A DNA stretch of 64,000 bases from positions 2,743,001 through 2,807,000 of the forward strand of contig JBAGRR010000001.1 in NCBI GenBank assembly GCA_036924835.1, written 5' to 3'. The notes beneath the pieces were generated by a model. That model saw only the letters and a list, made by a program, of their open reading frames with translations. It was not told where the DNA came from and did not search any database. Positions 2,876 through 63,817 of this stretch are shown here, in pieces. Both the position numbers and the translations under genes were made by a program. This DNA is from Nitrobacteraceae bacterium AZCC 1564. Its GTDB lineage: Bacteria; Pseudomonadota; Alphaproteobacteria; Rhizobiales; Xanthobacteraceae. Each line of letters opens with the position of its first letter. Position 1 is the first letter of the stretch.

Positions 2876-4096
2876 TCATCGTGTGTGATCGACGATTGCC
2901 CCTTTGTGCGAGATCGCCGCTGGGCCCCGCAGCAGCGCCTTGACCAACCTGCCGCCGGCACTTGTGGCCCAACTCAGCGTCAGCGCAACCGAGAAGACTA
3001 AGATCACCTTAGCGAACGCGCTCATCGTCGCGCCGACCAACGCGTATTGTAGCCACAGGACGAAGACATAGTGCACGATATAGATGCCATAGGCATTGGC
3101 CGAGAGGCTATCGAGCACATGGTCGCGTGCGCACAAGAGCCGCAACGTTATTCCTAGATAGGCTATGACGCCGGTTGCGCAGGCAGGTGGAAAGGCCAGC
3201 GCCGCGGCCAGCCTGTACGAAAGCGGGCTCGCGTTCCAGTCTGGCAGGGTCAGCGATGTCAGGCCACCCCATGCGCCGAAACAGATCACGGCCCCTGCGA
3301 GCCAGGCAAGCCAATGCCGTGCAATAGGCCCGTCGACGCGTAGCACGCTCCGATCGCAACCGTAACTGCCGATGGCGAAAGCCACGAGGAAATAGACGAG
3401 GTAATGCAAAGGCCGGCTCAGCTGGAAGGAGAACGGCCCAAGGTAAGTCCAATCCCAAGGCCCGAACGTCATCGCTAACGGAAGGTAGGCCAGACTCGAC
3501 AACCCCGTTAGCCCGACAAAGAAGGTGAGCGGCCGGTCGCTCAGTCGCCCGACCAAGCGGCTCAAGGCACAACTCCATTGAGGGGCTAAGCTGTGAAGTG
3601 CTGCTACGAACGAGCTGAGCACGAACAGTTGCCACAGAAACCATTGCGGGCCCGCTGGCCACATGGGGAGCGCTCGCAAATGCTCCCAGAAAGCGGCGGG
3701 CGAGGGGTCAATCGCGGTCAATCGATACGAGGCATAGTAAGCAAGCGGGCTAAGAACTGCGACGGCCAGCACGAAGGGGAGTCCGATGCGCCGCCACCGA
3801 TCGTAAAGGTAGGCAAGAAGGCCCTTGCGCCCGAGGCTCGCTGGTACAAACAGGCCGGCGAGAAAAAACATCAGCGTCATCAAGCTGACGTCCTGCCAGG
3901 CGCAAAACAGGTCGAAGCCGAACCAGCGTTCACGATCGATAATCGGGAACGCAATCCAACGATAAGGCGGTGCATCAAAGGCAAAAGGCTGCGCTTGCTG
4001 TGATGCAAGATAAGGCAACACCGAATGGAAGGCGACCACGATGAGGATGACGACCGCTCGCAAGTTAGACAAGGGCAAGTCAACCTTCGAGGTCAT
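2876..4096 (-). CDS. Acyltransferase 3 family membrane protein
   Basis: A 406-residue polytopic membrane protein. After a short N-terminus (SNLRAVVILIVVAFHS) come about ten hydrophobic segments, typical of acyltransferase-3 (OatA/OpgC/NodX-like) enzymes that O-acylate extracytoplasmic glycans or lipids. The histidine in VVAFHS matches the conserved position near the first membrane segment. The ATG at 4096 is preferred; an in-frame TTG at 4135 would add 13 residues. It is the first gene of a leftward operon with the DevC-like permease 7 bp downstream, suggesting the acylated product or its precursor is the exported substrate (inference). Confidence 0.8.
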   Translation of the reverse strand: MTSKVDLPLSNLRAVVILIVVAFHSVLPYLASQQAQPFAFDAPPYRWIAFPIIDRERWFGFDLFCAWQDVSLMTLMFFLAGLFVPASLGRKGLLAYLYDRWRRIGLPFVLAVAVLSPLAYYASYRLTAIDPSPAAFWEHLRALPMWPAGPQWFLWQLFVLSSFVAALHSLAPQWSCALSRLVGRLSDRPLTFFVGLTGLSSLAYLPLAMTFGPWDWTYLGPFSFQLSRPLHYLVYFLVAFAIGSYGCDRSVLRVDGPIARHWLAWLAGAVICFGAWGGLTSLTLPDWNASPLSYRLAAALAFPPACATGVIAYLGITLRLLCARDHVLDSLSANAYGIYIVHYVFVLWLQYALVGATMSAFAKVILVFSVALTLSWATSAGGRLVKALLRGPAAISHKGAIVDHTR

Positions 4097-14759: not shown

Positions 14760-15098
14760 ATGGGAAAGATCCTAACATTCCCGAGGCAATCGATTGCGCC
14801 AATCACAGTGCGAAAAGGGCCGAAACATCCCATCAGCGTGGAGGTCCTGGATGAAGTTCGACCACGGCGCACGCGGTGGGCGGTGCAATTCGAGATCCAG
14901 GAAGCGTCGGGTTATGCGGCACTCGGTGGATTTACCGATGGCGCAGTCGCGGCTGGTCTCAGGCACCGCTTCTATGTAGGCAACACTCAGGCTGTTCGGC
15001 GGTTTGTCGCCGCAACTTCGGACCTCGTGGCAACTGGCCGGATCGCCCTATGGATCGACGGCGTGCGTGTGCAGCACCATATCAAGAAGCTAGCATAA
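14760..15098 (+). CDS. Hypothetical protein
   Basis: A 112-residue basic protein starting 5 bp after GGAG. The sequence (RWAVQFEIQEASGYAALGGFTDG, then FVAATSDLVATGRIALWIDGVRVQHHI) shows alternating patterns of a compact alpha/beta fold. It ends 6 bp before a GC-rich hairpin that could terminate it. Not recognised. Confidence 0.5.
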   Translation: MGKILTFPRQSIAPITVRKGPKHPISVEVLDEVRPRRTRWAVQFEIQEASGYAALGGFTDGAVAAGLRHRFYVGNTQAVRRFVAATSDLVATGRIALWIDGVRVQHHIKKLA

Positions 15099-15103
15099 AG
15101 AAA

Positions 15104-15130
15104 GGCCGGAGCGGATCACCCGCTCCGGCC
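15104..15130. terminator. GC-rich hairpin after the 14760 gene
   Basis: Perfect GGCCGGAGCGG and CCGCTCCGGCC arms around ATCAC. No T-run follows on the plus strand; on the minus strand TTTCTTT follows, so it may act in either or both directions. Confidence 0.55.
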
Positions 15131-15381
15131 CTCGGTCCGTCGCAAGGATCTCTCGAGAACATGATCGAGTGTTGCAAGAAGGGAGCCGAAGCGATCGGCT
15201 CACGACACCACAGCGACTGTTACGAACTGTTTCCGCGATGATGATGAAGCCAAAATCCATACTCGTCCGAGCATGGCTTCCGTTATGCGTGGCGACCCAC
15301 AAAATCTGTTGGGGCAGGCGTCGGGGCAGGGATCAGGAGTCGCTTAATATGTCAATGATTTCAATCGTTTAGCTTGGCGTC

Positions 15382-15400
15382 TGGCGGAGAGGGAGGGATT
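15382..15400 (-). repeat. tRNA 3' end direct repeat (candidate att site, right)
   Basis: The tRNA end and CCA, identical over 19 bases to 4672-4690. Island integration would have regenerated the tRNA here. Confidence 0.7.
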
Positions 15401-15471
15401 CGAACCCCCGATAGGCTTGCACCTATGCCGCATTTCGAGTGCGGTGCATTCAACCACTCTGCCACCTCTCC
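15382..15471 (-). tRNA. tRNA-Ser (anticodon CGA)
   Basis: Read on the minus strand the gene begins GGAGAGGTGGCAGAG and ends CCTCTCCG plus encoded CCA. The anticodon stem CCGCA/TGCGG encloses the loop CTCGAAA, so the anticodon is CGA, reading UCG. A long variable arm (ATAGGTGCAAGCCTAT) and the T-loop GGTTCGAATCC are present, as expected for a serine tRNA of 90 nt. Its 3' end is the right boundary of the proposed genomic island. Confidence 0.97.
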
Positions 15472-15761
15472 GGGTGCCAAATCGGCAGATCGCCTGCCGG
15501 GTCGGGGCGTGTTCTATGCGAGGTTGACCGGATAGACAAGGCGCGGAAGCGATTAACCCACCCCGTTTAGCAGGGGAATCGTCTCAAATTTCCAATTCGC
15601 CGGATCACACCCCACATTAGGTAACGTGTTGCAACCGGAGGCGTTTTTTTAATGTGGGGCTTGGTTTCTGCGGGACGCCGTATGCGGCTCACTCGCGGCC
15701 TCACCGCCAATAAGCGGAGCAGCACTGAGAAACCCGCCGGCGATGGACGGATTACCCCGTT
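15472..15761. other. Intergenic stretch with inverted repeat
   Basis: Presumed tRNA promoter region plus the end of the ROK-gene transcript. Arms CCCCACATTA (15610-15619) and TAATGTGGGG (15650-15659) form a 10-bp inverted repeat with a 30-nt loop. Role unknown. Confidence 0.45.
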
Positions 15762-17183: not shown

Positions 17184-17627
17184 ATGTTCGCAGTCATCAA
17201 AACCGGCGGCCGGCAATTCCGTGTCGTTCCGAATGATGTACTTGAGATTGGCAAGATCGCCGGCGAAGTCGGCACGATTGTGCAGCTGGGCGAAGTGATG
17301 GTTGTCGGCGGCGATACGCCGACGCTGGGAGCTCCCTTTATTGCTGGCGCGTCGGTCGCCGCCGAAGTGCTTGACCACAAGCGCGGCCCGAAGGTCATCG
17401 CCTTCAAGAAGCGCCGCCGCAAGAATTCGAAGCGCAAGCGCGGCTATCGTGACGAAATCACGGTCATTCGCGTCACCGAGATCCTGACCGACGGCAAGGC
17501 TCCGACCATCGGACCGCGTCCGAAGAAGGAAAAGAAGGTCGAGGCTGCGCCGGCTGAGGGCGAGGCACCTGCGAAGAAGGCAGCAGCCCCCAAGACCGCA
17601 GCAAAAAAAGCTGCGCCGAAGGCCTAG
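17184..17627 (+). CDS. rplU: Large ribosomal subunit protein bL21
   Basis: A 147-residue protein. Residues 1-103 are the complete L21 domain (MFAVIKTGGRQFRV at the start, KRRRKNSKRKRGYRDE in the middle) that binds 23S rRNA. The remaining 44 residues are an Ala/Lys-rich tail typical of alphaproteobacterial L21. The ATG follows GGAAGAGA. The stop TAG (17625-17627) is part of the CTAG that opens the twin-hairpin element, so the element inserted exactly at the stop. Followed by rpmA, the usual order. Confidence 0.97.
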   Translation: MFAVIKTGGRQFRVVPNDVLEIGKIAGEVGTIVQLGEVMVVGGDTPTLGAPFIAGASVAAEVLDHKRGPKVIAFKKRRRKNSKRKRGYRDEITVIRVTEILTDGKAPTIGPRPKKEKKVEAAPAEGEAPAKKAAAPKTAAKKAAPKA

Positions 17628-17787
17628 TGTGGCTGTTCAGAAGTCCGCATCATTTGTGCTGCGAGCCTGGAATGCGGACTTCTGAACCAAAGCCACACTA
17701 GAACAATAACTTGCTAGTGTCCTTCGATTCCGAAGTTCGCAAAAAACGTGCAGCGAAATGATGCGAACTTCGGAATCGAGACACTAG
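17624..17787 (-). repeat. Twin-hairpin CTAG element, subfamily VI
   Basis: Stem A is GTTCAGAAGTCCGCAT with its complement; stem B is GATTCCGAAGTTCGCA with its complement; the spacer AACAATAACTTG lies between CTAG ends. It overlaps the rplU stop codon and separates rplU from rpmA. Confidence 0.9.
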
Positions 17788-32165: not shown

Positions 32166-32332
32166 CTAGTGTCCCGAATCCAAAGTTCGCCTCGTGTTGC
32201 GGCACGCTCCGTAGCGAACTTTGGATTCGAGAGGACACTAGCAAATTTATGATGCTAGTGTGGTTTAGGTTCAGAAGTTCGCTGGAAGGACTCGCGGGAA
32301 AGACAGAGCGAACTTCTGAACCACCACACTAA
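32166..32332 (+). repeat. Twin-hairpin CTAG element, subfamily II (clearest copy)
   Basis: Hairpin 1: CTAGTGTCC end, stem AATCCAAAGTTCGC, long loop, complementary stem, GGACACTAG. Spacer CAAATTTATGATG. Hairpin 2: CTAGTGTGG end, stem GGTTCAGAAGTTCGCT and complement, CCACACTA. The same subfamily occurs at 43219-43385 and 44130-44295. Confidence 0.92.
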
Positions 32333-39706: not shown

Positions 39707-39874
39707 CTAGTGGTCCGATTCTAACATTCGCATCCCATTTCGGCAGGCACCTCCTGCGAATGTTAGAATCAAAGGGCCGCTAGCAAATGTAAGTTCTAGT
39801 CGAGTTTTGGATTTGACATTCGCTTGACGAACTCGCAGCCAGGCGGGTCGCGAATGTCAAATCCACTCCACTAG
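39707..39874 (+). repeat. Twin-hairpin CTAG element, subfamily I
   Basis: Same orientation as 770-934. Stems GATTCTAACATTCGCA and ATTTGACATTCGCT with complements. The right CTAG (39871-39874) contains the TAG stop of priA read on the minus strand. Confidence 0.9.
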
Positions 39875-42045
39875 AGGAAGCTTTGCGGATCGATATCGAT
39901 CTCAAGCTTGAGGTTGCCCGTGAGCTTAGGCGCACCTGCGATCCAATGGCGTATGTAGTCGGAGAGATCCACGTTGCGCGCTGACTTCACCAGCAGGCGA
40001 AATCGATATCGCCCCTTGATCACCGCGAGCGGTGCCTCCGCTGGACCAAGCACCTGTACCCGCTCATCAAGTGGCGCCAGGGCCGCGAGCTTTCGGGCAA
40101 AACCTTCTGCGGTGGGACGATCGCCAGCCGAGATGATGAAACTTGCAAGCCGTCCAAACGGCGGATAGAGCGCACGCTCGCGCGATTCAATTTCGCTCGC
40201 GTAGAACGCCTCGCGGTCCGAGGCGATCAAGGCCTTCATCACCGGGTGCTCCGGCTGATGCGTCTGCAGATAACCAACGCCGCGCCCCTGCTCACGGCCG
40301 GCACGCCCGATCACCTGATTGAGTAACTGAAACGTACGTTCCGCGGCGCGTGGATCGCCATTGCCGAGCCCGAGATCGGCATCAACGACACCGACAAGAT
40401 TAAGCCGCGGGAAGTTATGCCCCTTGGCCACGAGTTGTGTGCCGATGATGATATCAACCCGGCCCTCCGCGATCTCATTCAGTTCCGCACGCATGGTCTC
40501 GATAGACGTGATCAGGTCGCTCGACAGCACCATGGTGCGCGCTTCGGGAAATAACGCCGCTGCTTCTTCCTGCAGTCGCTCCACGCCCGGGCCGATCGCC
40601 GCGAGCGATTCCTCCGCGTTGCATTGCGGGCATTGATGCGGGCGTGGCATCGAGAATCCGCAGTGATGGCAAACAAGCCGCTGACGAAAACGATGATCCA
40701 CCAGCCACGCGTCGCAGATCGTGCAGGCGAAGCGATGCCCGCAGGCGCGACACAAGGTGAGCGGTGCATAGCCGCGACGATTGAGGAACAGCAACGCCTG
40801 CTCCTTGCGCTCGACAGCGATCTTGATTTCTTCCGCCAATCGCGGCGAAATGAACTTGCCGCGCGGAGGGCCTTCACGCTTGAGATCAATCGCTTCGATG
40901 TGAGGCATATGCTGGCCACCGAAGCGAGACGGCAGCGCTACGCGACGATAGCGGCCCTTGCGTGCATTCACTTCACTTTCGACTGACGGTGTCGCGGAAC
41001 ACAGTACCACGGAGATTTTCGCAATGTGTCCGCGAACCACCGCCATATCGCGCGCGTGGTAATGCGCGCCCTCGTCCTGCTTGTAAGCTTGATCGTGCTC
41101 TTCATCGACCACGATGAGTCCGAGATCGGCATAGGGCAGAAACAGTGCCGAGCGCGCACCGACAACGACCTGCGCGTCTCCCGACGCGATAGCTGCCCAG
41201 TTGCGCGCGCGTGTCCGCGGCGTCAGTTCCGAATGCCACTCGATTGGCCGGACGCCAAAGCGCGACGCAAAGCGATCGAGAAACTGGCCGGTCAGTGCGA
41301 TCTCCGGCATCAGGATCATCGCCTGCTTGCCGCGGCGGATGATTTCGGCCACCCCCTCGAAATAGACTTCGGTCTTACCCGATCCCGTGACGCCGTCTAG
41401 CAGCGCGACATTGAATTCGTCCTTCGAAGCAAAGTCCCGCAGAACATCCGCCGCAGCGCTTTGTTCAGGCGAGAGATCCGGCTCTGCGAAGGATGGATCA
41501 GGCGCCGGTGCGGCAAGTTCGCGCGGCATCGGCTCGATTGTCAGCGTGCCTTCATCGACAAGACCATCGACCACACCAGCGCTGACACCTGCCTCCTTTG
41601 CCGCCTCGGTCTTCGCATGCAGCAGTCCGTCGGAGAGAAGGTCGATCAACCGGCGCCGCGCAGGCGTTAGACGCTGCGGCGGCGCGCCCACGAGCCGCAC
41701 GCCCATCCGTACCCGTTCGGGCCCCAGATGCTCGCCCATTCGCAGCGCCATACGCAGCACCATTCCCCGAGCCGACAGCGTGTAATTGGCAACCCAGTCC
41801 ACGAAGCTTCGTAGTTCCGGCTTGAGCGGCGGAACATCCAGCTTATCGCCGGTGTCCTTCAGTCGATTGTGCAGGCGGGGATCAGGATTGCCGTTCTCGG
41901 CCCAGACCACGGCCGTCACATCGCGTGGCCCCAGCGGCACGCTGACAACGTCGCCCGGATTGAGATCGACGCCATCCGGAACGCGGTAGGAATAGGCCTG
42001 GTTGAGGGCGACCGGCACGAGAACGTCCACAACTCGTCTTGCCAT
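39871..42045 (-). CDS. priA: Primosomal replication restart helicase PriA
   Basis: A 724-residue superfamily-2 helicase. Walker A GVTGSGKTE, DEEHD box, and two zinc-binding clusters within CRACGHRFACTICDAW and VCHHCGFSMPRPHQCPQC (eight cysteines) are complete. It reloads the replisome at stalled forks. The last codons are TTC CTC TAG, with the stop contained in the terminal CTAG of the hairpin element. It lies opposite xerC, a common arrangement in Hyphomicrobiales. Confidence 0.97.
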   Translation of the reverse strand: MARRVVDVLVPVALNQAYSYRVPDGVDLNPGDVVSVPLGPRDVTAVVWAENGNPDPRLHNRLKDTGDKLDVPPLKPELRSFVDWVANYTLSARGMVLRMALRMGEHLGPERVRMGVRLVGAPPQRLTPARRRLIDLLSDGLLHAKTEAAKEAGVSAGVVDGLVDEGTLTIEPMPRELAAPAPDPSFAEPDLSPEQSAAADVLRDFASKDEFNVALLDGVTGSGKTEVYFEGVAEIIRRGKQAMILMPEIALTGQFLDRFASRFGVRPIEWHSELTPRTRARNWAAIASGDAQVVVGARSALFLPYADLGLIVVDEEHDQAYKQDEGAHYHARDMAVVRGHIAKISVVLCSATPSVESEVNARKGRYRRVALPSRFGGQHMPHIEAIDLKREGPPRGKFISPRLAEEIKIAVERKEQALLFLNRRGYAPLTLCRACGHRFACTICDAWLVDHRFRQRLVCHHCGFSMPRPHQCPQCNAEESLAAIGPGVERLQEEAAALFPEARTMVLSSDLITSIETMRAELNEIAEGRVDIIIGTQLVAKGHNFPRLNLVGVVDADLGLGNGDPRAAERTFQLLNQVIGRAGREQGRGVGYLQTHQPEHPVMKALIASDREAFYASEIESRERALYPPFGRLASFIISAGDRPTAEGFARKLAALAPLDERVQVLGPAEAPLAVIKGRYRFRLLVKSARNVDLSDYIRHWIAGAPKLTGNLKLEIDIDPQSFL

Positions 42046-42126: not shown

Positions 42127-43110
42127 ATGGCCAAAGCCGCCGACGCAACCGGCCCGGATGCGACCACAGCGCAACTGACCTGCGCGACGCCCGATCTTCT
42201 CGCCGAGATGACAAACTGGCTGTCACATTTGCGGGCGGAGCGACGACTGTCGCCGAAAACCCTTGAAGCCTATGCGCGCGACCTGCGTCAGTGCCTGATC
42301 TTTCTCAGCGAGCATTGGGGCGGCCCCGTGACGCTGAAACAATTTGCCGCCATCGAGGCAACGGACGTACGGGCATTCATGTCGTCCCGGCGCGCGGATG
42401 ACATCGGCGGCCGCTCGCTCATGCGGGCGCTTGCGGGATTGCGATCATTCGGAAAGTTTCTCGAACGTGAAGGCAAGGGCAAGGTCGGCGCCCTGTCCGC
42501 GATCCGCGCCCCCAAAATCGGCAAGAGCCTGCCAAAGCCCATCCAGATGGATTCCGCGCGGCAGATGGCCGATGCAGATATTCGCGCCGGCGAAAACCGC
42601 GAACCATGGATCTGGGCGCGGGATGCTGCCGTCATGGCGCTGCTTTATGGCTCAGGCCTTCGCATCTCTGAAGCTCTCGGCCTCAAGCGTCGTGATGTGC
42701 CGCTTCCCGGCAAGGGCGATGTCATCGTCGTCACCGGCAAGGGGAACAAGACGCGCATGGTGCCGGTTCTGCAGAACGTCCTGCAACTTGTGCAGGATTA
42801 TGTGGCGATGTGTCCGCACACAATCGCACCAAACGAGCCGATATTTGTCGGCGCGCGTTGCGGACCGCTCAGCCCGCGCATCATTCAGTTGACGATGGAG
42901 CGGCTACGCGGCGCTCTCGGATTACCCGACAGCGCGACCCCTCATGCGCTGCGTCATTCGTTCGCGACACATCTGCTGTCACGCGGCGGCGATCTGCGCG
43001 CGATCCAGGAATTGCTCGGGCACTCGTCCCTCTCGACCACGCAGATCTACACCGGCGTGGATGCGGAGCGCTTGCTTGATGTCTACAAGACGGCCCATCC
43101 GCGCGCGTGA
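42127..43110 (+). CDS. xerC: Site-specific tyrosine recombinase XerC
   Basis: A 327-residue recombinase that resolves chromosome dimers at dif with XerD. The N-terminal SAM-like domain (SHLRAERRLSPKTLEAYARDL) and catalytic residues are complete: Arg in GSGLRISEAL, Lys in GKGNKTR, HALRHSFATHLL, HSSLSTTQIYT with the tyrosine nucleophile. Location beside priA marks it as the housekeeping enzyme and not an island integrase. Confidence 0.95.
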   Translation: MAKAADATGPDATTAQLTCATPDLLAEMTNWLSHLRAERRLSPKTLEAYARDLRQCLIFLSEHWGGPVTLKQFAAIEATDVRAFMSSRRADDIGGRSLMRALAGLRSFGKFLEREGKGKVGALSAIRAPKIGKSLPKPIQMDSARQMADADIRAGENREPWIWARDAAVMALLYGSGLRISEALGLKRRDVPLPGKGDVIVVTGKGNKTRMVPVLQNVLQLVQDYVAMCPHTIAPNEPIFVGARCGPLSPRIIQLTMERLRGALGLPDSATPHALRHSFATHLLSRGGDLRAIQELLGHSSLSTTQIYTGVDAERLLDVYKTAHPRA

Positions 43111-43180
43111 CAGAATTTTGTCGTGCAATGTCACATAGCTGCCCCTTGCGCAGTGCGTGCAGTTCGGTCAATCGTGACCC

Positions 43181-43510
43181 CTAGTGTGGCGTCTCGCAAT
43201 TGCCGATCACTCTTGCGGCTAGTGTCCCGAATCCAAAGTTCGCCTCGTCGTGCAGTCCGCTCCGTAGCGAACTTTGGATTCGAGAGGATACTAGTAAACT
43301 TATGATTCTAGTGTGGTTTAGGTTCAGAAGTTCGCTGGAAGGACGCGCGGAAAAGATCCAGCGAACTTCTGAACCACCACACTAGTCTCTTATCAGCAAT
43401 TGCGAGACAGAAGCCACACTAGCATTTTGATTTTGCTAGTGTCCTTTCGTCTCCGAATAACCGTGCGAGCGCGCCGCAAATTGGCCGGTTATTCGGAGAC
43501 GGGACACTAG
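43181..43510 (-). repeat. Twin-hairpin element, subfamily IV, interrupted by another element
   Basis: Outer element: stem GTCTCGCAATTGC (from 43191) pairs with GCAATTGCGAGAC (about 43396-43408), then spacer CATTTTGATTTTG and the second hairpin with stem GTCTCCGAATAACC and complement. A complete subfamily II element occupies 43219-43385 within the first loop. The uninterrupted relative is 63560-63726. Confidence 0.92.
43219..43385 (+). repeat. Twin-hairpin element, subfamily II, inserted in the loop of another
   Basis: Nearly identical to 32166-32332. It is flanked by CTAG on both sides. Left of it 15 nt and right of it 10 nt complete the outer loop, exactly the spacing around CTGG in the uninterrupted copy at 63560, so CTAG is the duplicated target. 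Confidence 0.92.
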
Positions 43511-43533
43511 TTTGTTGGGGAGAACTGTTTGCC

Positions 43534-44124
43534 ATGAGCGCACACGAGAGTATGGAGCATGCGGAGCACGCCGAACACGCATCCGGCTCCAACAAGAAGA
43601 TCGCGCTGCTGATCGCCGTCATCGCTCTGTTCCTCGCGTTTTCGGAAACGCTCGGCAAAGGCGCGCAGACCGAATCCATCAGCAAGAATGTCGAGGCCTC
43701 CAATCTCTGGGCCTTCTTCCAAGCCAAGAGCATTCGCCGCACAGTCGTCCAGTCGATCTCCGAACACGCCAAACTTAGCCTGGGCCTCGCCGGTGATGAG
43801 GCACAGAAGGCGGCGCTGACCAAGCAGATCGAGGACTGGCAGAAGACCGCAGCGCGTTATCGCTCCGAACCCGAAACCGGTGAGGGGTCTGAACAACTGG
43901 CCGCACGCGCCAAGCATGCCGAGCACGACCGCGATCTCGCCATGGCGCGGTATCATCACTACGAACTGGCTTCAGCGGCATTCCAGATCGGCATCGTGCT
44001 GGCATCAGCGACCATCATCACCGGGATGATCGCGCTGGCTTGGGTTTCGTGCTTGCTGACTGTCGCCGGATTGGCATTTACGGCAATCGGCCTGTTCGCC
44101 CCGCACGCCGTTCATATCATGTAG
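43534..44124 (+). CDS. DUF4337 membrane protein
   Basis: A 196-residue protein: His-rich N-terminus (HESMEHAEHAEHA), one membrane span (KIALLIAVIALFLAFSETL), a central helical soluble part, and two C-terminal spans (FQIGIVLASATIITGMIALAW and CLLTVAGLAFTAIGLF). The KGAQTESISKNVEASNLWAFFQAKSIR stretch is the DUF4337 hallmark. The function is unknown. It lies between two hairpin-element clusters and is not part of a recognised operon. Confidence 0.88.
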   Translation: MSAHESMEHAEHAEHASGSNKKIALLIAVIALFLAFSETLGKGAQTESISKNVEASNLWAFFQAKSIRRTVVQSISEHAKLSLGLAGDEAQKAALTKQIEDWQKTAARYRSEPETGEGSEQLAARAKHAEHDRDLAMARYHHYELASAAFQIGIVLASATIITGMIALAWVSCLLTVAGLAFTAIGLFAPHAVHIM

Positions 44125-44129
44125 TCGAA

Positions 44130-44295
44130 CTCGTGTCCTGAATCCGAAGTTCGCCTCATACTGCAGCGCGCCTTGTAGCGAACTTCGGATTCGAAAGGAC
44201 ACTAGCAACCTATGATTCTAGTGTGGTTTAGGTTCAGAAGTTCGCTGAAAGGACTCGCCGAGGGAATGAAGCGAACTTCTGAACCACCACACTAG
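44130..44295 (+). repeat. Twin-hairpin CTAG element, subfamily II
   Basis: Stems AATCCGAAGTTCGC and GGTTCAGAAGTTCGCT with complements. The left CTAG has decayed to CTCG. The right CTAG (44292-44295) supplies the TAG stop of the next gene. Compared with 32166 the first stem has A-to-G changes on one strand and matching T-to-C on the other, a compensatory pair. Confidence 0.9.
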
Positions 44296-44819
44296 GATGA
44301 CGATCGCGACGCCTGCATGCGACGGCGCAGGCGCTGAACAAATCCAAGCGACGCTCGCCCCCGCAGGCGAGTCGCCCACCGCCGGATGGCATCCTTGAAG
44401 GGCGCGACCAAAGCGGTCGCGCGGGCGCGCAGGTCTAAAACGATTTCATAGAGCTTGCAAAACCAGTCCATCCGCAACAGCTTGTCGCGCGTCAAGTCGA
44501 AGACAAACGCGATGAGACCGACGCCCAAAACCTTATGCAGGATAATCAGGATCGTGGCGCCGACAAAATACTTGTGCGCCAGCAGCCACGGCTCGACCAA
44601 GCTCAAAGGAAACAGCAGGACGAGCGGCACAGCAAATACGATCAACGTCGCACCAGGCGAGAGATGATCGATCTGTGCCGCCAGCCACCTCTTAAAGGCA
44701 GGAAGCGGAATCAGCGCAACGACGCGTGCGATGATCGGCTCGACGCGGTCCCACAGCCAAGCCTCGAGCAGAAAGATCAGCGCAAGCAGAACCCACAGCG
44801 GACGAAGCAGCCGACGCAT
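44292..44819 (-). CDS. Hypothetical membrane protein
   Basis: A 175-residue protein with three hydrophobic segments (LWVLLALIFLLEAWLW, ATLIVFAVPLVLLFPLSLV, FVGATILIILHKVLGVGLIAFVF) and a very basic Arg-rich C-terminus. No family name can be given with confidence. The final codon and stop are TCC TAG, the stop lying in the terminal CTAG of the adjoining hairpin element. Hairpin elements flank it on both sides. Confidence 0.7.
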   Translation of the reverse strand: MRRLLRPLWVLLALIFLLEAWLWDRVEPIIARVVALIPLPAFKRWLAAQIDHLSPGATLIVFAVPLVLLFPLSLVEPWLLAHKYFVGATILIILHKVLGVGLIAFVFDLTRDKLLRMDWFCKLYEIVLDLRARATALVAPFKDAIRRWATRLRGRASLGFVQRLRRRMQASRSSS

Positions 44820-44844
44820 TCCGCACTCTCATCCTCGTGACCGC

Positions 44845-45013
44845 CTAGTGTCCCGGTTCTAACGTTCGCATCACTTTGCAGCACTCTCGTTCGCGAACGT
44901 TAGAACCAGGAAGGACACTAGCAACTCTATGAAGCTAGTGCGCTTTTTGGATTTGACGTTCGTACTGAGGACTCGCCGCAATGCTGGCACGAACGTCAAA
45001 TCCAGCGCACTAG
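44845..45013 (+). repeat. Twin-hairpin CTAG element, subfamily V
   Basis: Stems GGTTCTAACGTTCGC and GGATTTGACGTTCGT with complements, spacer CAACTCTATGAAG. It ends 12 bp from the lpdA stop and stands where an lpdA terminator would be expected. Confidence 0.9.
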
Positions 45014-45025
45014 CGCCGGACCACG

Positions 45026-46429
45026 TTACATATGGATGGCGCGTTTTCCGACCGCAAGCGCGGCTTCCTTGACAGCCTCAGACCGCGTCGGGTGGGCATG
45101 GCAGGTACGTGCAAGGTCTTCTGCCGAACCGCCGAACTCCATGAGAACCGCAGCTTCGTGGATCATTTCGCCGGCTTCCGCGCCCACAATGTGCGCACCG
45201 AGCACGCGATCCGTCTTTGCATCCGCAAGAATCTTCACAAAGCCATCCGTGGTCTGGTTGACCTTGGTGCGCGCGTTCGCCGTGAACGGAAACTTGCCAA
45301 CCGTGTAGGCCACGCCAGCCTGCTTCAATTCTTCCTCAGTCTTTCCGACCGAGGCCACTTCCGGCGATGTGTACACCACGCTTGGGATCACATCGTAATT
45401 GGTGTGACCAGCCTGGCCGGCGAGGATTTCGGCGATCGCAATGCCTTCGTCTTCCGCCTTGTGCGCCAGCATCGGTCCCGCAATCACGTCACCGATGGCA
45501 TAGATGCCCTTCACATTGGTTGCGAAGTGCCCGTCGGTCTGCACGCGGCCGCGCTGATCAAGCACAACGCCTGCCTCCTTCAGACCAAGGCCGTCAGTGT
45601 ACGGCACGCGTCCGATCGCAACGAGCACGACATCCGCCTCAATGGTTTCCGCCTTGCCCCCGCTAGCGGCTTCGACCTGCGCCTTCAGCCGCTTGCCTGA
45701 GCTGTCGACGCTGGTCACCTTGGTGCCGAGCTTGAAGGTCATGTCCTGCTTCTCGAGGATGCGCTGGAAGGACTTCGCCACTTCGCCGTCCATGCCGGGC
45801 AAGATCCGATCGAGGAATTCGACGACCACCACTTCTGTTCCCAGACGCCGCCATACCGAGCCAAGCTCAAGGCCAATGACGCCTGCGCCAATGACCAGCA
45901 TCTTCTCGGGCACCTTGTCGAGCACCAGCGCGCCGGTCGACGACACGATACGCTTCTCGTCGATGTCGACGCCCTTGAGCTTGGCGACGTCGGAGCCCGT
46001 GGCGATGACGATGTTCTTGGTTTCGAGAATCTCAGTTTTGCCGTCAGCGCCCTTCACCTCGACCTTGCCTGCAGACACGATGCGGCCCGTGCCCTGATAA
46101 GGCTCGACCTTGTTCTTCTTGAACAGGAATCCGACGCCCTTGACGTTGCCGTCAACACCATCGGTCTTGAACTTCATCATGGTCGAAAGGTCGAGCTTCG
46201 GCTTACCGACTTCGATGCCCATCTTCGGCAGCATATGAGAGACTTCCTCATAGCGCTCCGACGCCTGCAGCAACGCCTTCGAGGGAATACATCCGACATT
46301 CAGACACGTGCCTCCGAAGGTCGGCCACTTTTCGACAACCGCGACCTTCATGCCGAGCTGTGCTGCGCGGATCGCGCAGACATAACCACCGGGGCCGGTG
46401 CCGATAATGACGAGATCATAAGAGGCCAT
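45026..46429 (-). CDS. lpdA: Dihydrolipoyl dehydrogenase (E3)
   Basis: A 467-residue flavoprotein that reoxidises the lipoyl arms of E2. FAD loop [15 protein letters not shown], redox disulfide [18 protein letters not shown] loop [13 protein letters not shown], and catalytic His in HAHPTRSEA. Its position after sucB assigns it to the 2-oxoglutarate dehydrogenase complex, though one E3 may serve several complexes. Confidence 0.97.
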
Positions 46430-63484: not shown

Positions 63485-63817
63485 CTAGTGGAGTGGATCT
63501 GACATTCGCTCCCCGCCCGGCTGCGAGCTCGTCAAGCGAATGCCAAATCTAAAACTCCACTCGTGTGGCGTCTCGCAATTGCGGACCTGTCCTGCGGCTG
63601 GTGTCATATGGGCAATTGCGAGACCTAAGCCACACTAGCATTTTGATTTTGCTAGTGTCCTTTCGTCTCCGAATAACCGTGCGAGCGCGCCGCAAACCGG
63701 TCGGTCATTCGGAGACGGGACACTAGAGACTTACATTTGCGAGTAGTCCTCCGGATTTCTAACATCGTAGGAGGTGCCTGCTGAAACCGGATGCGAATGT
63801 TAGAATCGGGCCACTAG
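63485..63817 (-). repeat. Twin-hairpin element, subfamily I, interrupted by another element
   Basis: Left hairpin stem ATCTGACATTCGCT and complement (63485-63563); right hairpin from 63740, stem GATTCTAACATTCGCA read on the minus strand (one arm partly decayed). A subfamily IV element lies at the junction between the left hairpin and the spacer. The uninterrupted relative is 27387-27549. Confidence 0.88.
63560..63726 (-). repeat. Twin-hairpin element, subfamily IV, inserted in another
   Basis: Stems GTCTCGCAATTGC and GTCTCCGAATAACC (right arm with one change) and complements, spacer CATTTTGATTTTG. Left junction CTCG, right junction CTAG; removal leaves the normal spacer AGACTTACATTTG of subfamily I. 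Confidence 0.9.

Follow-up and report, generated by a model that had tools for sequence, protein, structure and literature searches.

A hairpin dimer nested in the loop of another in Nitrobacteraceae bacterium AZCC 1564, and the status of its flanking CTAG tetranucleotides

Our data show that a complete hairpin dimer lies inside a hairpin loop of a second dimer in Nitrobacteraceae bacterium AZCC 1564, at 43219-43385 of the window (the whole 64,000-nt stretch of DNA that was analysed), and that both belong to a large family whose mobile unit is a dimer of two inverted hairpins. We identify the dimer as the mobile unit because whole dimers are present or absent at orthologous sites and because they are found nested whole. 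Direct repeats at the flanks of an insertion are routinely read as target duplications; in the large family described here that reading is mostly wrong, and the repeats behave as stem ends. The best explanation, which we somewhat favor, is that a non-autonomous dimer enters YYRR-like sites of 4 nt, its target-derived ends then being rewritten to match the stem.

Architecture of the nested site and of its family

The host is a subfamily IV dimer at 43181-43510 that reads, directly from the sequence, as hairpin 1, the spacer CATTTTGATTTTG and hairpin 2. Hairpin 1 is broken after position 43218 by a complete 167-nt subfamily II dimer with CTAG at both outer ends. The sequence-only reading had described a full element inside the hairpin loop of another with CTAG on both sides, and reading the sequence confirmed this. 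Also correct was the spacing it gave: in the split copy, 15 nt separate the left stem (GCAATTGC) from the first CTAG and 10 nt separate the second CTAG from the right stem, and the same distances surround a CTGG in the subfamily IV dimer at 63560.

All parts of the nested site were annotated on the plus strand. By comparison with unsplit copies, the left part of host hairpin 1, up to the insertion point in the loop, spans 43181-43218, and its right part spans 43386-43422. These are followed by the 13-nt host spacer (43423-43435, with the same spacer at 63639-63651) and by host hairpin 2 (43436-43510). Within the insert (43219-43385, its 167 nt including both outer CTAGs), hairpin detection and folding delimit a 76-nt hairpin A, CTAGTGTCC...GGATACTAG, at 43219-43294; a 13-nt spacer, TAAACTTATGATT, at 43295-43307, separates it from the 78-nt hairpin B, CTAGTGTGG...CCACACTAG, at 43308-43385. 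Copies folded alone (for example 44130-44205 and 44218-44295) show a 3-nt bulge on the inner arm of each hairpin, and the two hairpins of a dimer are therefore mutually inverted.

The nesting at 43219-43385 is real and far beyond chance, since 42 of the 98 matches listed are near-full-length subfamily II copies (78-100% identical to the window copy) and shuffled sequence yielded 0 such hairpins in 100 kb. The shuffle control, run with another detector, is the better one; the reversed-sequence control (34 hairpins, versus 180 in the actual sequence) is poor because palindromes survive reversal. An Rfam search of 42900-45200 found nothing above the gathering score and two sub-threshold microRNA models over hairpin B; with only sub-threshold matches in these 2.3 kb of the window, a known RNA family was rejected.

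Hairpins of the family are ~73-80 nt long with TG...CA just inside each end, and a dimer consists of two different hairpins joined by a spacer that usually measures 12-13 nt. In the genome that contains the window (hereafter the own genome), the pattern CTAGTG-N50-78-CACTAG matches 737 times, versus 41 for the pattern read backwards. The same pattern has 0 to 84 matches in each of 24 other genomes of the genus, with 48 and 42 in G019 and G020. Outside the family, 16 genomes of the same order were scanned: 11 lack the pattern and five have one or two matches unlike these hairpins. Exact cores occur, among the matches listed, in records titled Afipia, Bradyrhizobium, Nitrobacter, Rhodopseudomonas, Pseudolabrys and Aestuariivirga, some of these records being metagenome bins.

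We sampled 464 kb of the own genome, comprising the window and 20 stretches that were picked around listed copies and are hence non-random. Of the neighbouring hairpins in this sample, 73 pairs are separated by 12-13 nt and 14 pairs overlap by exactly four bases, one tetranucleotide being common to both hairpins; no pair abuts with a gap of 0. By our own parsing, six of these overlaps are dimers split at an inner tetranucleotide by another complete dimer (L182, L183, L186, L188, L195 and the window at 63485). The case at 43219 is the seventh split dimer and the sole one with its insert in the loop.

The window holds further dimers. On the plus strand, the first hairpin of a subfamily I dimer (63485-63563) is split by the subfamily IV dimer at 63560-63726, whose loop site reads CTGG; the two overlap by four nucleotides, with CTCG common to both, and the spacer and second hairpin of the split dimer follow at 63727-63817. 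The dimer at 63560-63726, which had been taken as an intact comparator, therefore lies nested within a second dimer (63485-63817). A further subfamily II dimer, with CTAA as its right end and 92% identity, lies at 32166-32332, and another subfamily II-like dimer at 44130-44295, both on the plus strand. A related dimer at 17624-17787 on the minus strand has as its orthologous place AAAG in four of six relatives and GAAG in one, the sixth being gapped. By eye, this last dimer falls within the 3' end of a gene whose tail is rich in lysine and alanine; a TAG stop is supplied by CTAG, and relatives continue a few codons further. A long minus-strand gene at 39871-42045 (PriA-like, by eye) has its stop codon within the terminal CTAG of a dimer, at 39871-39874.

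Several other arrangements were seen. Single hybrid hairpins at 591551-591624, 627800-627871 and 671897-671971 of the own genome have a left arm of one type and a right arm of the other, and look as if a deletion had joined both hairpins of a dimer via their common core. L192 contains a small tandem array of three similar hairpins with 87-nt gaps (15087-15666). Two dimers in opposite orientation, L013 (own genome 5226362) and L014 (5226034), are separated by ~160 nt and have the same outer flank, which makes it look as though element and flank were duplicated together as an inverted repeat. Outside detected hairpins CTAG is avoided in the 464-kb sample, with 232 found versus 391-555 expected, and 298 more lie inside hairpins.

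Target sites of the dimers

According to the sequence-only reading, deleting the insert together with one CTAG recreates the empty site exactly. This was not confirmed, as the comparator at 63560 reads CTGG. The site was readable in 10 unsplit copies of this hairpin, seven from the fetched own-genome stretches and three from about 100 of the 737 pattern matches that were listed; an eleventh, in L182, lacks the site through a deletion and was left out of the count. The site reads CTCG in three copies, CTGG in three, and CTTG, CGAG, CTGC and CTAG in one each, the CTAG copy being L188 and the other nine having other tetranucleotides. The copy with the loop most like that of the split copy, L181 (GATCACTCTTGCGG / TCTCTTATC), reads CTCG. 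These copies suggest that the target of the 43219-43385 insert was probably other than CTAG, most likely CTCG or another CTNG, though the ancestor of this one host copy may have carried CTAG.

Comparison of the window sites with genus relatives at ~80% identity was rejected, the sites being mostly too diverged. Because the relatives of the own genome are only ~80% identical to it in DNA, we used G013, G041, G018 and G020, which are 91-95% identical to one another in the fetched stretches and between which dimer insertions of the same kind are polymorphic. Comparing G013/G041 dimers with dimer-free sites in the other genomes reduced 66 distinct occupied loci to 41 with clean empty orthologs, and to 39 after two duplicates were removed, with ties between relatives settled by script order (L334, L335). 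The empty site is 4 nt long at 20 loci, 5 nt at eight, 3 nt at four, 6 nt at three, and 1 nt and 2 nt at two each; 19 of the 39 thus have a length other than 4 nt.

None of the 20 four-nt empty sites reads CTAG. Eight of them have one mismatch to CTAG, eight have two, four have three and none has four, compared with background frequencies of 4%, 21%, 46% and 29% for one to four mismatches. Fourteen end in AG or start with CT, versus a background of 9% (P = 8e-11, for a motif chosen after seeing the sites), and 12 fit YYRR in full by our own count. Where both ends are CTAG and the empty site is 4 nt long, that site reads something else in 11 of 11 cases. Comparing ordinary 4-nt words of the flanks across these genomes gives differences in 180 of 650 cases, so 11 of 11 CTAG sites would rarely be lost by drift alone (0.28^11, ~1e-6, if sites drift no faster than flanks).

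Relatives without the element mostly agree with one another (CAAG in 3/3 at L228, CCAG in 3/3 at L232), and on this ground we rejected the idea that the empty sites are excision scars; the agreement fits an ancestral site. At L202, L209, L220, L323, L333, L334 and L335 the empty relatives do not fully agree.

The same counts bear on the proposal that insertion into CTAG, with duplication of this tetranucleotide, was the work of an IS5-type transposase. Such a duplication would leave CTAG at both ends of the insert, as observed; the site is CTAG in one of the 10 unsplit copies, and beyond the 20 four-nt sites CTAG stands at the empty site of L206 in G020 and, for one of its two relatives, of L335, where the script settled the tie in favor of the 5-nt site found in the other. 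Nevertheless, nine of the 10 readable unsplit copies and all 20 four-nt orthologous empty sites lack CTAG, on which basis CTAG was rejected as the duplicated target, and the two matches to PF01609 in the own genome include no complete IS5-type gene with matching ends. We therefore consider this proposal very improbable, and as a general rule of the family CTAG duplication is already contradicted. Of the original claim of a 4-bp transposition, the insertion of a whole element at a CTAG-like 4-nt site stands, and the simple duplication of a CTAG target does not: the predominance of empty sites without CTAG speaks against that duplication, not against transposition itself.

Pairing of end tetranucleotides within hairpin stems

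An earlier set of G013 hairpins was biased in that it required at least one perfect CTAG hairpin. We therefore rely on a G013/G041 set picked by stem core alone, in which 75 matches gave 55 distinct cores that were read and 50 that were parsed as dimers (five failed). Forty-six of the 50 (92 hairpins) were kept; L308 and L314 were dropped as the same sites as L280 and L286, and L304 and L311 for a mis-parsed partner hairpin. Tetranucleotides other than CTAG/CTAG occur in 33 of the 92 hairpins, and in 26 of these 33 the two end tetranucleotides are perfectly complementary, a count reached in 0 of 20,000 shuffles (shuffle maximum 9). The complementary pairs are CCAG/CTGG (13), CTGG/CCAG (7), CGAG/CTCG (3), and CTCG/CGAG, TTAG/CTAA and CCAA/TTGG (1 each). 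Across the 22 G013/G041 dimers with a non-CTAG outer end, the same tetranucleotide stands at both outer ends in only four, and its reverse complement in three.

Orthologous copies of 13 insertions were aligned. Both tetranucleotides of one hairpin differ between copies at four of them (L204, L227, L230, L233), and one-sided differences are found at L216, L219, L224 and L235. At L233 both arms differ at once (TCAG/CTGG versus CTAG/CTAG), which requires more than one simple arm-copying step. Stem coupling is weak in the own genome, where 108 hairpins in 54 dimers comprise 78 CTAG/CTAG, four complementary variants and 26 non-complementary ones, some of them mis-parsed. The own-genome copies may be old and decaying by single changes, as most of the subfamily II copies listed share 89-92% identity with the window copy.

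Taken together, the G013, G041, G018 and G020 comparisons show whole dimers present or absent, at sites mostly 4 nt long and CTAG-like, and tetranucleotides that are paired in G013/G041; they show in part that the site is kept at the ends of the element. It stands at both ends at only two loci, L292 (CTGG in two relatives, CTGG at both ends) and L312 (one relative, both ends CTGG), and at one end at L232 (CCAG in three relatives, left end CCAG) and L298 (one relative, right end CCAG as in the site). The left end of L233 reads TCAG in the G041 and G020 copies, as does the G018 empty site, and CTAG in G013. Nine loci have a 4-nt site that appears in two or more listings, and there the ends match the site in 3 of 18 cases; for one of these loci, L305, the two listings are a single G018 place on both strands, and the other eight rest on at least two genomes.

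Under the explanation that we favor, a mover acting in trans would cut a 4-nt target with a stagger, so that both ends begin as copies of the target. Facing the inner tetranucleotide across a long hairpin stem, the outer one would then be rewritten, usually to match an inner CTAG and sometimes the other way round. Template switching at an imperfect palindrome, or exchange with other copies, would be the likely rewriting processes. The former is a known process that makes arms match, according to the accessible portion of one report (PMC8794818). The latter is likely for some loci, because the loops of the L204 and L227 orthologs differ strongly. The CTAGs around 43219-43385 would accordingly be read as stem ends that hold no record of the target.

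The pairing of outer and inner tetranucleotides in G013/G041 and the two-hairpin architecture would also suit insertion guided by the hairpin in an IS200/IS605-like manner, with single-stranded DNA entering after a tetranucleotide that is imperfectly paired with the inner one. Such a process, which we consider doubtful, would take one end from the target and the other, just as doubtfully, from the element; at L232 and in the G041/G020 copies of L233 the site recurs at one end and CTAG stands at the other, and one end resembles the site at L231, L226, L321 and L323. Against it, the site is present at both ends in L292 and L312, and the Y1 transposase domain PF01797 (RAYT) gave 0 matches in the own genome in a Pfam model search and none in G013, G041 and G018. 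The domain was found in three of 29 genus genomes (G019, G004, G020), once in each and weak or broken in every case, and within ~1.5 kb of those genes there is no convincing hairpin of the dimer family, with one weak candidate in L405. With no match in the own genome and no convincing hairpin beside the relatives' genes, a RAYT was rejected as the mover, as far as PF01797 can tell.

It is conceivable, though we think it unlikely, that the inner tetranucleotide acts as a pairing guide that chooses a partly matching 4-nt target, the inner stem remembering an earlier landing site for the next one. The target would then be overwritten by the element or would write its complement into the inner stem, a step to which we attach equally little confidence.

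A further possibility, that the element brings both outer tetranucleotides with it and replaces ~4 nt of the target by blunt replacement or microhomology-mediated insertion, would explain why most ends are CTAG whatever the site, why the replaced stretch varies from 1 to 6 nt, and why neighbouring hairpins overlap by four bases (14 cases) and never abut. We judge it quite improbable, as the ends equal a non-CTAG site at L232, L292, L298, L312 and two L233 copies, and stem coupling requires a rewriting process anyway. Dozens of natural insertions with known empty sites make target choice, duplication and stem rewriting directly measurable in this family.

Candidate movers and comparison with known systems

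TG...CA beside the insertion site is typical of several DDE transposase families. That an IS5-type transposase moves the element as a MITE in trans, as the sequence-only reading proposed, was not borne out by the two PF01609 matches of the own genome (L200, L201). No hairpins of the dimer family were found around L200. At L201, a 5'-truncated copy of the L200 IS4/IS5-type transposase gene (1327-1797) lies between two dimers of the family; the truncated gene starts at the dimer at 1337-1503, and the other dimer is at 2918-3083.

An IS630-type duplication of TA inside CTAG was likewise rejected. The outermost C is seldom variable (exceptions number 2 and 4 among 77 outer ends, and 3 and 2 among 77 inner ends), TA stands in the middle of 2 of the 20 four-nt empty sites, and the IS630-type domain PF13358 has one partial match in the own genome. 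A search for an autonomous copy, as lone inverted arms around a gene, found none that was convincing in the 2.19 Mb fetched, and four chance-like pairs.

We found no description of this element in the literature searched, a search that had most subscription journals outside its coverage. Nearest in print are Br-REP1 and Br-REP2 (PMC5082802) and the GTAG and CGTC REPs (PMC3733652), as far as the available parts of these two papers go. Br-REP1 and Br-REP2 of Bradyrhizobium are repetitive palindromes of the same bacterial family, and Br-REP2 is described as belonging to a larger element that also occurs in Nitrobacter, Oligotropha and Afipia (PMC5082802, available text). Neither the Br-REP1 consensus printed there nor a 17-nt stretch of the Br-REP2 one matches the window with up to three mismatches.

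IS481 of Bordetella is alike in the CTAG core of its insertion site, but its target is NCTAGN, it makes a 6-bp direct repeat and it has its own gene (PMC3279416, accessible sections); here 6-nt empty sites make up 3 of 39. Bacterial MITEs, which have terminal inverted repeats and target duplications and are moved by DDE transposases, differ in that our element has two tandem hairpins, its duplication is usually not visible as its ends are, we propose, rewritten, and its parent IS was not found. They resemble it in being short, in lacking a gene, and in TG...CA beside a 4-nt site.

REPINs and BIMEs, pairs of REP hairpins moved by RAYT (TnpA-REP), differ in several respects. REPIN hairpins have GTAG at one end, whereas here a CTAG-like tetranucleotide stands at both ends and pairs within the stem; REPs measure 20-40 bp (PMC3733652, in the part available), compared with ~73-80 nt for the hairpins here; and REPINs are moved by RAYT, while the own genome is without a PF01797 match. 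The likeness lies in the organization: both are dispersed dimers of inverted hairpins with a tetranucleotide tag, have no gene of their own, and occur nested and clustered.
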